DNA of 64,000 nt from Acetobacteraceae bacterium (GTDB lineage: Bacteria; Pseudomonadota; Alphaproteobacteria; Acetobacterales; Acetobacteraceae), in NCBI GenBank assembly GCA_003164135.1, contig PLSD01000028.1:62001-126000 (forward strand), given 5' to 3'. A program made the position numbers and the translations under genes. How positions within the stretch are numbered: the first letter of the stretch is position 1; the number at the start of each line of letters is the position of its first letter. A model generated the notes under the pieces. The model ran no database searches and was not told the DNA's origin. It saw only the letters and a list, made by a program, of their open reading frames with translations. This document shows positions 27,525 through 34,396 of the stretch, piece by piece.

Positions 27525-28760
27525 TTAGCCCGTCACCTTCACCAGCACGTGCTGCTTCTTCCCGGCGGAAAGCTTCAGCTCCGCCGCGGGAGCAATCACC
27601 TGCGCCTCGTCGCCGACCACCAAATCGTTCAACCGCGCGCCACCGCCCCTTATCAACCGCCGTGCCTCGCCATTGCTGCCGGCCAGCCCGGCACGCACAA
27701 ACAGCGCGAACGCCGGCAGGCCGTTGCCGAACTCCGCCGCCGGAATTTCCACTGTCGGCAGCCCCTCGGCCACGCCGCCCTGGCTGAAGATTTTATGCGC
27801 CGTCGCCGCCGCTTCCTCCGCCGCTTCGCGGCCATGTGCGAGCGCCGTCGCCTCGGTCGCCAAAATCACTTTGGCCCCATTAAGTTCGGCCCCACCCAAC
27901 GACTCCAGCCGCGCGATCTCACCCAGCGGCAAATCCGTGAACAGTTTCAAAAACCGCCCCACATCCGCATCCTCGGTATTCCGCCAGAACTGCCAATAGT
28001 GGTACGGGCTCAGCTTCTCCGCCGAGAGCCACACCGCCCCGGCCGCTGATTTGCCCATTTTCGCGCCGGAAGCCGTGGTAATCAGCGGCGTCGTCAGGCC
28101 AAACACGCCCTTCTGGTCGGTCCGGCGCACCAGATCCACACCGGAGACGATATTCCCCCACTGGTCCGAGCCGCCCATCTGCAACACCACGCCATACTGG
28201 CGGCTCAGCTCGCGGAAGTCGTAGCTCTGCAAAATGGAGTAGTTGAATTCCAAAAACGTCAGCCCCTGCTCACGCTCCAGCCGCGAGCGCACCGAATCGA
28301 ACGACAACATGCGGTTAATGGAAAAATGCACACCCACTTCGCGCAGCAGCTCGATATAGCTCAGCCGGTCCAGCCAATCGGCATTATTCACCAGCACCGC
28401 ATCGTTCGGCCCATTACCAAAGGTAATAAACGCCTCGATATTCTTACGGATACCCACCAAATTCTTCGCAATCTGCTCATCCGAGAGCAACTGCCGCGCT
28501 TCCTCCCGGAACGAGGGATCACCGATCCGCGTCGTCCCCCCACCCATCAACGCCACCGGCCGGTGCCCATGCTTCTGGAACAGCCGCAGCAGCATGATGG
28601 GGATCATATGCCCCACATGCAGGCTCTCCGCCGTCAGGTCGAACCCGGCATAGCCCGCAATGCTGCCCGCGGCGCAGGCACCGTCCAGCGCCTCCTCGTC
28701 GGTGCACTGAAACAAAAAGCCGCGCGCCTTCGCCTCGGCCAGAAACCCACTCTTCGCCAT
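27525..28760 (-). CDS. tyrS: tyrosyl-tRNA synthetase
   Basis: Class I synthetase charging tRNA-Tyr, 411 residues, bacterial type. The HIGH-type motif is [14 protein letters not shown] (about residue 45), [10 protein letters not shown] binds tyrosine, and KMGKSAAG is the KMSKS-type loop. The C-terminus is an S4 RNA-binding domain ([18 protein letters not shown]). The TAA stop is the TTA at the right junction of the inverted-repeat element. A GT87 gene lies 14 bases upstream on the same strand, so the two may be cotranscribed. Confidence 0.97.
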
Positions 28761-28774
28761 ATGTTTTGATCCTC

Positions 28775-30025
28775 TTACGCGCGGGGTAGCACAGCCGCCT
28801 TGCGTGGCAAATGCGGCACCGGCAGCCCCGCCCGGTACCAGGTGCGCGCCACGGCCAGCAGCACGACCAGCGGCGTAATCAACAGCCCGGTCTTCTTCAC
28901 TTCAACAAGGCAAAGCATCGGCCACAGCCAAAGCAACACATCCAGCAGACCAATCCGCCAGCCACGCCGCTCGGCAAGCATCGCCAGCACGACCGAATAC
29001 CCTACCATATCGTCTGAATAACCATAGGGTGTGGCAAGCAGCGACAAAAACACCGTAAGCGCCAGACGGTCCAACGCGGTTAAATTGTCCCGCCGCCAAA
29101 TCCAGCCGGTTACCGCCATGGCAGCCAAAGCCACTGCCAATTGCGCCGCGTAGGACACCGTCAGCCCGGCGCCCAGGCTGCGCAGCATCCAGAATACCGA
29201 GACTCCACCTTCCTGGTAAGAAAGCCGGTTGAACACGGCATTGAGAACCTTCGTTGACTCCCCGCTGCCCAAGCCGAAATAAACCGGCCAGACGGACCAG
29301 CCGAATGCAACGGACACCAGCAGGCACAAGCATCCACACATCATCACGAAAGCGCAGAACGCCCGTAAATTACGCTGGCCCCAGAACACCGCGGGCACCA
29401 GCACGCCGATCTGCGGCTTGCACACCAGCAGCCCCAGCAGTCCGCCCGCGCGCAAAGGCTTGCGCGCCGACACCATCAGCCCCGCGAGAAGCACCGCGCC
29501 ACCGGCCACGCCCAACTGACCAAGTTCCGTGTTCCACAGTGCCGCCGGACTCAGCAGCGCCAGCAAAATCACCAGCCAGGATGCTCCCGCCCAGCGCAGC
29601 AGCAGGGCCGAGAACAGGATCAACCCGAATGTCCAGATGAAAAACCCCAACTCATACGGCAGGTAGGAAATCAGTGCGCTGGGCAACAGCATTGGCGGCG
29701 GATAAAAAAACGCATCCTGTTGCGCGCCGGCGAACAATACCTGCCGCTGCCAGGCAAGAAACATTTGCGGCTGGTATATGCTCATGAATTCATGCGCCCG
29801 CGCCAGCATGCCAGCTGGCCAGAATGCTGAAAAATCGCATTCAGGGGAGATGCAAGGCGGATCGTTGGCAATCGCGCGGTGTGCCGTCAAATACCCAAGC
29901 CGGGGTAGCATTTTGCCACAGAACACCTCGAAAATAGCAAACCAAACCAACCCCAGCAGCGAATATGTCGCCATATTCCAACCCAGCCGCGTATAGTCGC
30001 CCAGCCGTTTCAAAATCGCCGTCAT
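28775..30025 (-). CDS. GT87-family (DUF2029) membrane glycosyltransferase, copy A
   Basis: A 416-residue GT-C protein with about ten membrane helices, probably using a polyprenyl-phosphate sugar donor on the outer face of the inner membrane. I chose the ATG at 30025 ([11 protein letters not shown]), 5 bases after an AAGG site, over the longer ORF-track start. Typical GT87 pieces are [19 protein letters not shown] and [15 protein letters not shown]. It is clearly homologous to the next gene on the same strand, with near-identical C-terminal text ([21 protein letters not shown]) but more divergence in the middle. The sugar and acceptor are unknown. Confidence 0.85.
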
Positions 30026-30027
30026 GC

Positions 30028-30206
30028 CACCCTTAACTAAATCGCTTGTTGCGCGTAGCACAATCTCCATGCCAACCAAATCAACCCGCGCCATCGGCCT
30101 CATGTCCGGCACCTTGCTCGATGGCGTGAGTGTCGCTTGGCGGGAAACGGACGCCGAAACCATCACCCATTTCGGCCTTGGTACTATGCTAGAATACGAG
30201 GATACA
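30028..30206. repeat. duplicated segment, copy A (matches 31495-31673)
   Basis: An ungapped copy, offset 1,467 bases, of the intergenic region and the anmK 5' end found at 31495-31673. In the first 86 bases, which include the shared divergent promoter area and the anmK start, I count four differences. Similarity then decays and ends near base 30206. It marks the boundary of a tandem duplication that also produced the two GT87 genes. Confidence 0.85.
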
Positions 30207-30263
30207 CCGCGCCCGATCTACCACACCGCTGCACATTTCATTAAGAGCCAGGGAGGACAGTGA
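30069..30263 (+). pseudogene. 5' fragment of anmK left by tandem duplication
   Basis: From the ATG at 30069 the frame reads MPTKSTRAIGLMSGTLLDGVSVAW, nearly the same as the complete AnmK at 31536, and stays similar for about 46 residues (to FGLGTMLEYED). It then turns into unrelated sequence and stops inside the 3' end of GT87 copy B. The sugar-kinase fold is cut off after the first nucleotide-binding loop, and the Ser of GTSLDG is Leu, so no kinase activity is possible. It keeps an intact start region and may still be translated as a 64-residue remnant. Confidence 0.88.
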
Positions 30264-31491
30264 CCCGGCCAGGAAAATACGGCACCGGCAGCCCTGCCCG
30301 GTACCAAGTGCGCGCCACGGCCAGCAGCACGACCAGCGGCGTAACCAAAATCCCGGTCTGGACCGACACGAACAAACATATCCCTGGCCAGAGCCACAAC
30401 AACGCATCCAGCATACCAATCCGCCAGCCGCGCCTTGCCGCCGCCGCCGCCAGCACGGCCGAATAGGCCACCATCTCGCCGCAATAGCCGAATGGTGTCG
30501 CCAGCAGCGAGAGGAATACCGTCAGCTCAATCAATGCGGCGACGCCAACCCCTGCATAGCGCCAAAGCCAATAGCAAATGGCAGCAGCGCACAGGCTTAC
30601 GCTCGCCTGTAAAATAAAGGCGACGTGCAGACTCGCATGCATACTTCGCAGCATCCAGAACACCGAAACGCCCCAGCCCTCGTTTGACAGCGGATGAAAG
30701 GGTAGGCTCAGCATTCTGGCCTCCTCCGATCGGCCCAATGTGAAATATGCGCCCCAAACGCTAAAACCAAAAACCAATGTCACCAACGCGCACAACAACA
30801 CCACGACCAGAAAAAAAGCCCCGAGTTGGCGCCAGTTGCGCTGCGCCAAAAATACCACAGGGGCCAACAGCCCGATCTGAGGTTTGCATGCGAGCAGACC
30901 GGTAAGGCTACCACCCAGCCATGGCCGCTGCGCGGTCAGCGAAAGACCAGCCAGAAATAGCGCATCCCCGGCGATGTTTACTTGCCCTAACTGCAAATCC
31001 AAAAGCGCCGCGGGGCTGAGCAGGGTTGCCACGATCACCAGCCAGGGTAGCCGCCCCGCGCGCAGTAGCAACACGGCGGCAAGCGCCAACCCAAGAGACC
31101 AGACAAAAAATCCAATTTCAAACGGCAGACGCGAGATCAGTGCCACCGGCAGCAGCATGGTGGGCGGGTAGAAAAAAGTCTCCAACTGGCTGCCTGGCAG
31201 CAGCATCGCACTTGCCGCCTGACTAAAAAGCTGCGGCGAGTACAGAGTAACAAAGGCGTGTTCCAGCGCCAGCCGCCCGGCTGGCCAGTAGACCGAAAAA
31301 TCGCATTCCGGCCGGCCGCAAGGCAGATCATTCGCGATCGCCCGGTGCGCGGTCAGATAACCCAGCCTCGGCGCCATATGTTCGTAAAACGCATGCAACA
31401 GCACCAGCCAGAACGCGCCGAGCAACCCATAGGCCCCCATCTGCCAAGCCAGCCGCGCATATGCCCACAATCGATTCATAACCGCGCCCAT
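30241..31491 (-). CDS. GT87-family (DUF2029) membrane glycosyltransferase, copy B
   Basis: A 416-residue GT-C membrane protein and paralogue of copy A. Shared landmarks are [44 protein letters not shown] and LLACKPQIGLLAPVVF, and the last 60 or so coding bases are almost identical in the two genes. GTG (31497) and two ATGs (31491, 31479) are possible; I chose 31491 because an AAGG site is 6 bases before it, as in copy A. It is divergent from anmK with 44 bases between starts. Its terminal codons overlap the anmK fragment. Confidence 0.85.
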   Translation of the reverse strand: MGAVMNRLWAYARLAWQMGAYGLLGAFWLVLLHAFYEHMAPRLGYLTAHRAIANDLPCGRPECDFSVYWPAGRLALEHAFVTLYSPQLFSQAASAMLLPGSQLETFFYPPTMLLPVALISRLPFEIGFFVWSLGLALAAVLLLRAGRLPWLVIVATLLSPAALLDLQLGQVNIAGDALFLAGLSLTAQRPWLGGSLTGLLACKPQIGLLAPVVFLAQRNWRQLGAFFLVVVLLCALVTLVFGFSVWGAYFTLGRSEEARMLSLPFHPLSNEGWGVSVFWMLRSMHASLHVAFILQASVSLCAAAICYWLWRYAGVGVAALIELTVFLSLLATPFGYCGEMVAYSAVLAAAAARRGWRIGMLDALLWLWPGICLFVSVQTGILVTPLVVLLAVARTWYRAGLPVPYFPGRVTVLPGS

Positions 31492-31494
31492 ATT

Positions 31495-31673
31495 CACCCT
31501 TAACTAAATCGCCCTTTGCGCGTAGCACAATCTCCATGCCCACCAAATCAACCCGCGCCATCGGCCTCATGTCCGGCACCTCGCTCGACGGCGTGGATGT
31601 CGCCTGGCTGGAAACCGACGGCGAAAGCATCACCCATTTCGGCACCACCGCCATGCTGCAATACGAGGAATCG
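31495..31673. repeat. duplicated segment, copy B (matches 30028-30206)
   Basis: Parental-looking counterpart of the repeat at 30028-30206, because here the anmK gene continues intact. It covers the GT87-anmK divergent gap and about the first 46 codons of anmK. There are no indels relative to copy A. Confidence 0.85.
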
Positions 31674-32618
31674 CTGCGCGCCGACCTGCGCCGCCTGCTC
31701 GACCTCGCCCCCTCCATCGCCGCCGATGATCCCTTCCTGCTGGACGTGGAACAGCGCCTTACGCAGGACCACGCCATCGCGGTGGTGCTGGCCGGGCGCA
31801 ACGCCGATGTCATCGGCTTCCACGGCCAAACCATTTTGCACGCGCCGGACCAACACCGCACCTGGCAGATCGGCGATGCCGCGCGGCTTGCCCACCTCTG
31901 CCGCATGCCCGTGGTGCACGACTTCCGTTCCGCTGATGTCGCCGCCGGGGGCCAGGGCGCGCCGTTGGCCCCGCTGTTCCACGCCGCCATGGCGCGCGAC
32001 CTGCCCAAGCCGCTGCTCATCGTGAACATCGGCGGTGTCGCCAACATCACTTACCTCGGCGCCAACGGCGAGATCCTCGCCTGCGACACCGGCCCCGGCA
32101 ACGGCCCGCTGGACGATCTGGCGCAAAAACACCTCGGCCAACCCTACGACAAAGACGGCGCCCTGGCGGCCTCCGGCACCATAGACGCCACCCGCCTCGC
32201 CACCCTGCTTGCCCACCCGTATTTCGCCCGCCCCGCACCAAAATCGCTGGACCGGCTCACCTTCTCCGCCCTCATCGCCCAGGCCACGGCCGGGTTGCAG
32301 CCCGCCGACGCCGCCGCGACCCTGGCTGAATTTTGCACCAGCGCCATCGCGCGCGCGCCGTTGCCGGCCGCCCCGTTGCGCGTGCTGGTCGGCGGCGGCG
32401 GGCGCAAGAATCCCGTGCTCATGGCCGGGCTGGCCCGCGCCTTCACCGTGCCGGTGCAGCCGGTCGAGGCCGCGGGCTGGGACGGCGACGCGCTGGAAGC
32501 CCAGTGCTTCGCCTACCTCGCCGTGCGTTCGTTAAAGGGCCTGCCGCTGTCCCTGCCGAGCACCACGGGCGTGGCTCAGCCGTTAACCGGCGGGCGGCTT
32601 CAGTCGGTCATTTTATAA
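31536..32618 (+). CDS. anmK: anhydro-N-acetylmuramic acid kinase
   Basis: A 360-residue cytosolic kinase that opens and phosphorylates 1,6-anhydro-MurNAc to MurNAc-6-phosphate in peptidoglycan recycling. The ATP-binding loop GLMSGTSLDGVDVAW, the NIGGVANITYL segment, CDTGPGNGPLDDL and the late GGGGRKNPVLM are family signatures. NagZ in the 12-kb operon makes its substrate class. The last 19 bases overlap the convergent STT3-like gene. A truncated second copy of its 5' end lies 1.5 kb to the left. Confidence 0.96.
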   Translation: MPTKSTRAIGLMSGTSLDGVDVAWLETDGESITHFGTTAMLQYEESLRADLRRLLDLAPSIAADDPFLLDVEQRLTQDHAIAVVLAGRNADVIGFHGQTILHAPDQHRTWQIGDAARLAHLCRMPVVHDFRSADVAAGGQGAPLAPLFHAAMARDLPKPLLIVNIGGVANITYLGANGEILACDTGPGNGPLDDLAQKHLGQPYDKDGALAASGTIDATRLATLLAHPYFARPAPKSLDRLTFSALIAQATAGLQPADAAATLAEFCTSAIARAPLPAAPLRVLVGGGGRKNPVLMAGLARAFTVPVQPVEAAGWDGDALEAQCFAYLAVRSLKGLPLSLPSTTGVAQPLTGGRLQSVIL

Positions 32619-34393
32619 AGCCGCCACCCCTGGGCGTTGCTGCCCGCGGGTTGCAACCAGACCGGCTGGTTGCCGGCCGCCAGCGCATCCCACAGCGTGG
32701 TTGCCGGCAAATCCGCCACCAGCGCATAGCGCCCCGCGCGCGGGCAAAACAGCACGTATTGCGCCCCCGTCACCCGCACCGCATCCGGCACCTGCGCCCC
32801 CGGCACCACGCGCCATGCGTCCCGGTCACGCAAATATCCCGCCAAACCGTGATGATACAGCGACCCCACCGTTTTCACCTGCGTCCGGTACAGCAATTCC
32901 GGCGTATCCTGCGGTTCCGCCAGCACGATTTTACCCGCCGCCGGGGCCAGCAAAGGTGCGATGTCCCGCAAATTGCAGGAAGCCGCCCCAGCTCCCGGCG
33001 CCACCACCGTTCCCACAGCAGCGGTATTCACCGCGGCCGCCGCAACAGGAACCACCAGCACGCAAAGCAGCAGCGCCAAGCGCGAGACCATCGCCAGTGC
33101 CGGCTTCGCCTCAAAGCGCAAGCTCACCTCGCTCAAGGCGAGCGGCAACAGCACCGCCGCCACGCACGGCGCAAACCCGGCAAACAGCACAAATTCCGCC
33201 CCCAGCACCAGCGCCACCGCGGTGCAGGCCGCCACATAAAGCCACAGCCAGCGCGCCCGCCCCGGGACAATTTTCATAAACGGCGGCTGCAGCCAAGCCA
33301 GGGCATCCGGCTCCCCGGCGCCGGCACCCGAACCAGCGCCAGCACGCCACAACGCATATGCCAGCGCCAGCGCGCCCGGCCCCAGATACACCAGCAGTCC
33401 CATCCCCCGCACCGGCTGCTGCTGCGCGATAACACCGAAGAATTTGTGCATATCCGCCGCCGGCATAATGCCATACGGCCCCATCGCCACCTGCGGAAAC
33501 GCCACCACCCAGGCCGCCACCAGCGCCGCCATCAGCGCCACTCCCAGCACGCGGCGCCATATCTTCTTCCGCCCCGCCCCGCGCGTTTCCAGCGCCCACA
33601 ATCCGGCAGCCCCCGCCAGCAGCAGCATCGCCAGCGCAACGTACACCAGCGACAAGCGGTCGATTTCCGGCATGCCCCACCCGCCCTGCGGCGGGTCAAC
33701 AATCAGCGCCACGCTCAGCACGTCGAAGAACCCGGCAACGCACGCGCCAACGGTCCGGCACAACGGCGCCTGCACCCAACGGATCAGCAGCGCCGCAAAC
33801 GCCATGAGCACAAACGGCATGGTCTCGGGCGTCAACCAGATGGCAAACGCCCCGCTCACCCCGGCCAGCAGCCCGTAGGTGACATCGTCCTGCCAGGCGC
33901 GCGCCACGCAACCGGCGGTCAGCACAATCAGCACCAGCAGCAGCGTATGGTAATGCACGACCCCCGGCGCATCGAAGTACAACAGCGCCGGCAGCATCGC
34001 AGCCGCCACCACCGCCGCCCATAAATACCGCCGCGCCGCGAAAGGCTCCGCCACCCAGGCGCAAGCCACGCCCAACGCCCCAGCCCCCAACGGCCCCAGC
34101 CCCACCCCCGCCACATACAACGCCCGGTGCCAGCCCAAAAACGGCGCGAACGGCAACGCCAGCAGCCACAACACCATATCCAGCAGCCGCGACCACTCCA
34201 CCATCACCCCGGCGCCCGAATCATCGCGCGCCACGACAATCACCAGATGCCCGGCGCGGATCCCATCCTCCAGCCGCAGCAGCCGCATGTAGCTGTCCGG
34301 GTCGGTCAAACTCCCCGCCAGCACGCCCGGCCACTCATGCGCCCCGAGCAGAATATTCAACCCCGCGCCGAGCAGAAACAGTAGGAGGTACAT
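32600..34393 (-). CDS. STT3/GT-C-like polytopic membrane protein
   Basis: A 597-residue protein from the ATG at 34393 (the ORF track used an upstream TTG). About 12 helices are followed by a C-terminal soluble domain (about 470-597, LRDIAPLLAPAAGKIVL to the end) with three cysteines. Two short motifs recall oligosaccharyltransferases of the STT3/PglB/AglB type: an acidic DPDSYMRLLR after the first helix and APGVVHYHTLLL in a later loop, comparable to their DxD and DHH elements. It may transfer lipid-linked sugars, but it lacks a recognisable WWDYG, so the name is only a fold-level guess. It starts 3 bases after the FMN-protein stop. Confidence 0.6.
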   Translation of the reverse strand: MYLLLFLLGAGLNILLGAHEWPGVLAGSLTDPDSYMRLLRLEDGIRAGHLVIVVARDDSGAGVMVEWSRLLDMVLWLLALPFAPFLGWHRALYVAGVGLGPLGAGALGVACAWVAEPFAARRYLWAAVVAAAMLPALLYFDAPGVVHYHTLLLVLIVLTAGCVARAWQDDVTYGLLAGVSGAFAIWLTPETMPFVLMAFAALLIRWVQAPLCRTVGACVAGFFDVLSVALIVDPPQGGWGMPEIDRLSLVYVALAMLLLAGAAGLWALETRGAGRKKIWRRVLGVALMAALVAAWVVAFPQVAMGPYGIMPAADMHKFFGVIAQQQPVRGMGLLVYLGPGALALAYALWRAGAGSGAGAGEPDALAWLQPPFMKIVPGRARWLWLYVAACTAVALVLGAEFVLFAGFAPCVAAVLLPLALSEVSLRFEAKPALAMVSRLALLLCVLVVPVAAAAVNTAAVGTVVAPGAGAASCNLRDIAPLLAPAAGKIVLAEPQDTPELLYRTQVKTVGSLYHHGLAGYLRDRDAWRVVPGAQVPDAVRVTGAQYVLFCPRAGRYALVADLPATTLWDALAAGNQPVWLQPAGSNAQGWRLYKMTD

Positions 34394-34396
34394 CAA

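Follow-up and report, generated by a model that had tools for sequence, protein, structure and literature searches.

Two old GT87 lineages with young ends in a probable recombination slot between tyrS and anmK of Acidocella

How do two neighboring genes come to have closely similar ends and very different middles? The question is raised by a 64,000-nucleotide stretch of DNA (contig PLSD01000028.1 of assembly GCA_003164135.1), here called the window, which belongs to a genome of Acidocella, the genus being taken from its named relatives. From left to right, it holds tyrS (tyrosyl-tRNA synthetase, minus strand, 27525-28760; Pfam tRNA-synt_1b, E 1e-74), a first glycosyltransferase gene, GT87-A (minus strand, 28775-30025), a divergent gap of 43 bases (30026-30068), a 5' fragment of anmK (plus strand, 30069-30212), a second glycosyltransferase gene, GT87-B (minus strand, 30241-31497), a gap of 38 bases (31498-31535), the intact anmK (anhydro-N-acetylmuramic acid kinase, plus strand, 31536-32618; Pfam AnmK, E 4e-85) and a gene for a membrane protein of 598 residues on the minus strand. 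The two flanking genes are conserved, tyrS being 93-94% identical at the amino acid level to its counterparts in the five closest Acidocella genomes. The left gap, presumably the promoter of GT87-A, matches the right one at 38/43 bases, and the right gap, presumably carrying the promoters of both GT87-B and anmK, has 35 of its 38 bases in common with the left. GT87-A likely starts at the ATG at 30025, with which the ATG of GT87-B at 31491 aligns; the reading frame opening at the GTG at 30166 reads across the anmK fragment. The repeat period of the two units is 1466-1467 bases, and the repeat is the one originally predicted: each GT87 gene is followed by the same type of divergent gap and an anmK start, one anmK being complete and the other recognizable over about 48 codons (the prediction had it ending after about 46). 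The near-identity of the 86 promoter-proximal bases (38 of the gap and 48 of anmK) was also confirmed, with five differences instead of the four that had been counted.

Judged by sequence and predicted structure, both genes encode GT87-family membrane glycosyltransferases of the GT-C type. The Pfam family (PF09594) is matched at E 2e-24 by GT87-A and 1e-26 by GT87-B (86.9 and 94.5 bits, with the curated cut-off at 25), and the AlphaFold model of GT87-A (pLDDT 88.7) finds mycobacterial PimE as its top solved matches (9dm7 and 9dm5, probability 1.00, E 1.5e-3 to 2.3e-3), with TM-scores reaching 0.58 (query) and 0.63 (target). PimE was reached through fold comparison only, a sequence search of solved structures with GT87 giving no match. 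PimE is a polyprenyl-phosphate-mannose-dependent transferase with D58 as its catalytic residue (PMC12041525). Where this residue would be expected, in the first outer loop, 22 Acidocella genes share an invariant aspartate (D64 in GT87-A), a candidate counterpart of D58 by its place in the loop. GT87-A and GT87-B are putative polyprenyl-phosphate-sugar-dependent transferases, similar to PimE in their Pfam match and in the predicted fold of GT87-A, and possibly in the first-loop aspartate, but sharing only 15% identity with it and implying no mycobacterial-type PIM pathway.

The two genes have separate histories. In a tree of 31 GT87 genes, GT87-B pairs with the gene of A. aquatica (G009; support 100/98, 71% amino acid identity) and next with those of G006, G061, G027, G005 and G031 (99/99), while GT87-A groups with genes of G012, G021 and G026 with moderate support (81/85). 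Forcing GT87-A and GT87-B into one clade costs 112.6 log-likelihood units and is rejected (p-AU 4.8e-10), so that they are not the mutual closest relatives that a local tandem duplication would have left. The bodies of the two genes represent two old lineages, each with relatives of its own among other Acidocella species, and are not local duplicates. Separate orthologues of this kind are what the original prediction, which saw here the tandem duplication of one GT87 gene, had itself held to be incompatible with it.

The space between tyrS and anmK is variable throughout the genus. In the 26 genomes with both genes on one contig, the flanks are conserved; 10 of the gaps are empty and the other 16 contain one GT87 or more, the content ranging over zero, one or two GT87 genes, remnants and mosaics. 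Some slots hold two minus-strand GT87 genes, others a distant GT87 on the plus strand, which is either the only one or accompanied by a GT87 on the minus strand. The GT87 copies of G007 and G023 are frameshifted, and G002 is without the minus-strand GT87 that G011 and G023 retain, although these genomes are about 94-95% identical around it. Two single C-terminal pieces, in G036 (C60) and G004 (C276), were dropped as candidate remnants and left out of the slot analysis, both being at contig ends. Among 120 genomes sampled evenly over the family, only five from outside the genus had a match at E 1e-30 or better, with at most 39% identity. Literature searches on the anmK-tyrS locus and on Acidocella glycosyltransferases turned up no title or abstract that describes the slot.

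The ends and the bodies of the two units differ in age. GT87-A and GT87-B align without gaps over 414 residues with 56% identity. By position along the genes, which are 62% identical as a whole, the figure is 92% at codons 381-400 but only 69% over the last 16 codons. Synonymous divergence (dS) is 1.26 overall. It falls to 0.31 over the final 36 codons and, in most of the body, including the middle, exceeds 1.2 or is saturated, which bears out the claim that the middles are far more diverged than the ends. Between the anmK fragment and anmK, dS is 0.30. For comparison, dS of tyrS and anmK against the near sisters with the same GT87 type (A. aquatica and G016) is 0.5-0.7. Since the ends fall below this range and the bodies above it, both unit ends postdate the species split and the GT87 bodies predate it, the age of the bodies being a lower bound because their synonymous sites are saturated. 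The left copy of the edge points the same way: the gap and anmK start of the fragment copy share the state of the window at 18 of the 23 sites that set its lineage apart from the two sisters, which indicates that the edges were copied after the split. The left gap copy has 55% identity to A. aquatica over 38 bases.

Recombination has also left its mark within the genes. With GT87-A and the A. aquatica gene as references, GT87-B is A. aquatica-like over codons 22-380 (240 versus 119 informative sites) and A-type over codons 381-418 (30244-30357, minus strand), where 30 of the 31 informative sites are GT87-A-like and only one is A. aquatica-like. None of 20000 permutations reached this value, in a test that treats sites as exchangeable and whose exact breakpoints are therefore to be taken loosely. 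The 3' divergence between the two genes climbs gradually, without one sharp breakpoint, making several conversion events as likely as one. The single GT87 gene of G016 is also a mosaic, B-like at codons 6-129 and A-like at codons 130-420, with a breakpoint near codons 130-167. Gene conversion at the ends, which had been proposed as one explanation of the unequal divergence, is therefore supported as recombination at the ends, by the A-type 3' end of GT87-B together with the lineage states on the left copy.

Taken together, the gap between tyrS and anmK is very probably a recombination slot for GT87 genes, in which two long-separate alleles came to be stacked in tandem in the lineage of the window, with ends that are young. 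The edges of the slot would be conserved through regulatory DNA, namely a putative tyrS promoter within the 3' codons of the GT87 on the tyrS side and the short gap, presumably with divergent promoters, that leads into the start of anmK, and the GT87 bodies between these edges would be exchanged, lost and recombined. After the split from A. aquatica, a segment that begins at a GT87 stop codon and reaches approximately codon 48-57 of anmK would have been added beside the resident unit. As to the route, we infer either that a chromosome with A crossed over with one carrying B, or that a piece containing B and the anmK start was integrated by a single crossover.

The order of events may have been a different one. 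In a variant of the same explanation, the A unit was duplicated in tandem after the split from A. aquatica and a B-type body (about codons 1-380) then replaced that of the right copy by recombination at the ends. Such a sequence would account for the equal age of both ends and for the A-type 3' end of GT87-B from codon 381, at the cost of two events, as compared with a single additive crossover involving a B allele that already bore the shared 3' end. We regard it as a serious possibility, albeit not the favored one; on sequence alone, the two routes fit about equally well.

A simple local duplication is another matter. Here, one GT87 unit would have been duplicated in place, its middles diverging fast under selection for different sugars while constraint kept the ends, as the collinearity of the units over their full length and their common flanks could suggest. 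Each GT87 is nevertheless closer to the gene of another species than to its neighbor, and the clade that this history demands is the one rejected above. A promoter constraint cannot explain the A-like 3' end of GT87-B either, because this gene no longer adjoins tyrS. Selection for different sugars in the middles, the other explanation offered originally, found no support: whole-gene dN/dS between the two genes is about 0.30, and no window along them with measurable dS has dN/dS above 1, in a test weakened by saturated dS. A ratio near 0.3 means that purifying selection maintains both genes; altered sugar specificity is possible, with no sign of it in these data. With the tree and the AU test against it and dN/dS giving no support, local duplication followed by positive selection was dropped as very improbable.

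The anmK fragment provides a record of the junction. It comprises 48 codons with 83% nucleotide identity to anmK, and weak similarity continues to about 30240, towards the stop codon of GT87-B. There are 24 differences over 144 bases, of which 16 could be polarized with eight relatives. Fifteen of the 16 fall on the fragment side, 11 of them non-synonymous, including changes at positions that are invariant in the intact anmK of all eight relatives (S16L, D21S and L25R). This one-sided accumulation identifies the fragment as a decayed pseudogene, a recombination footprint, and its decay speaks for a real, old join and against a chimera made up of living alleles. That the assembly, which is in several contigs and has an estimated contamination of 5.4%, joined two strains with different alleles is thus barely credible and was set aside as unlikely, since a fragment with 11 polarized non-synonymous changes, several at residues invariant elsewhere, is no live allele of another strain, and the order B-anmK is also found in A. 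aquatica. The first 48 bases of the fragment hold only two of the 24 differences (Fisher p 0.004), as would be expected if they still served as upstream region of GT87-A, although in the intact anmK, too, these bases are conserved.

On the tyrS side, the edge of the slot coincides with a conserved element. Of 31 Acidocella loci, 28 have the motif TGCTACC at a distance of 29-35 nt upstream of the tyrS start codon; it occurs irrespective of the presence of a GT87 and is often preceded by a TTTGCC-like box. In the window and in G016, it lies within the final codons of the tyrS-adjacent GT87; in the window, TTTGCC, 14 nt and TGCTACC occupy 28785-28811 on the minus strand, the latter -10-like and 31 nt upstream of the tyrS ATG. 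The model of GT87-A is disordered at the residues of the element (406-416). In GT87-B, which has lost contact with tyrS, the element has decayed (GTGCTACC to GTCCTCCC). A. aquatica, for its part, has a complete B-type gene and, next to tyrS, a stranded A-type C-terminus of 46 codons in which the element is intact. From its position and conservation, the element is likely the tyrS promoter. The spacing of 14 bases between the boxes is short of the usual 17. Most alphaproteobacterial promoters of the primary sigma factor are without the usual T at -7 (PMC8407463), so an atypical -10 is no objection to such a reading. More tentatively, the promoter of this essential tRNA synthetase gene, lying within the 3' codons of the adjacent glycosyltransferase, might itself fix the recombination edge, making a specific and recurrent exchange site at which surface-sugar transferases are swapped with the expression of tyrS and anmK undisturbed, although we find this doubtful.

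The locus is a well-documented example of a kind of locus already known. Surface-polysaccharide loci have conserved flanks and variable glycosyltransferases, and the Acidocella slot resembles them in its conserved housekeeping flanks, its variable sugar-transferase content and its recombining edges, but it takes zero to two single-gene inserts instead of a multi-gene biosynthesis cluster. In the C-terminal displacement of enterobacterial rhs loci, new gene parts recombine in at a conserved segment, and fragments stay behind next to the intact gene (PMC2935791). Entry at a conserved segment and stranded fragments are common to both systems, whereas Rhs, to which GT87 is unrelated, changes its C-terminal tip and the Acidocella slot changes the body between two regulatory edges. 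Near-identical ends with diverged middles can pass for a duplication followed by selected divergence; here, it is the recombined ends that are young, and the diverged middles are old alleles. The slot is compact, and its own pseudogene gives it a date. Because it is present in cultured species (A. aquatica and A. facilis), a direct test can show whether enzymes of the surface glycan are exchanged in them.

Several observations were made around the slot. In G012 and G015, more GT87 genes lie across anmK, between it and the gene for the 598-residue protein (L041 6383-7384 and L046 3936-6183), suggesting that the insertion-prone zone may exceed the tyrS-anmK gap. The assemblies of G008 and G016, which are different species, have in common a stretch of 4 kb with another GT87 (L071 3270-7269 and L072 1-4001) at 99.65% identity, which may reflect either a recent transfer or contamination in binning. 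The slot of A. facilis (G061) contains one GT87 and a minus-strand reading frame of about 420 residues (L064 4014-5415) that by eye looks like a PAP2-type membrane phosphatase. Finally, the gene for the 598-residue membrane protein (32600-34396, minus strand) overlaps the end of anmK and is kept beside it in most Acidocella loci compared; the protein matches no Pfam family, and its predicted structure (pLDDT 76) matches the oligosaccharyltransferases STT3, PglB and AglB as well as DPY19 (E 2e-7 to 7e-5, probability 1.00).
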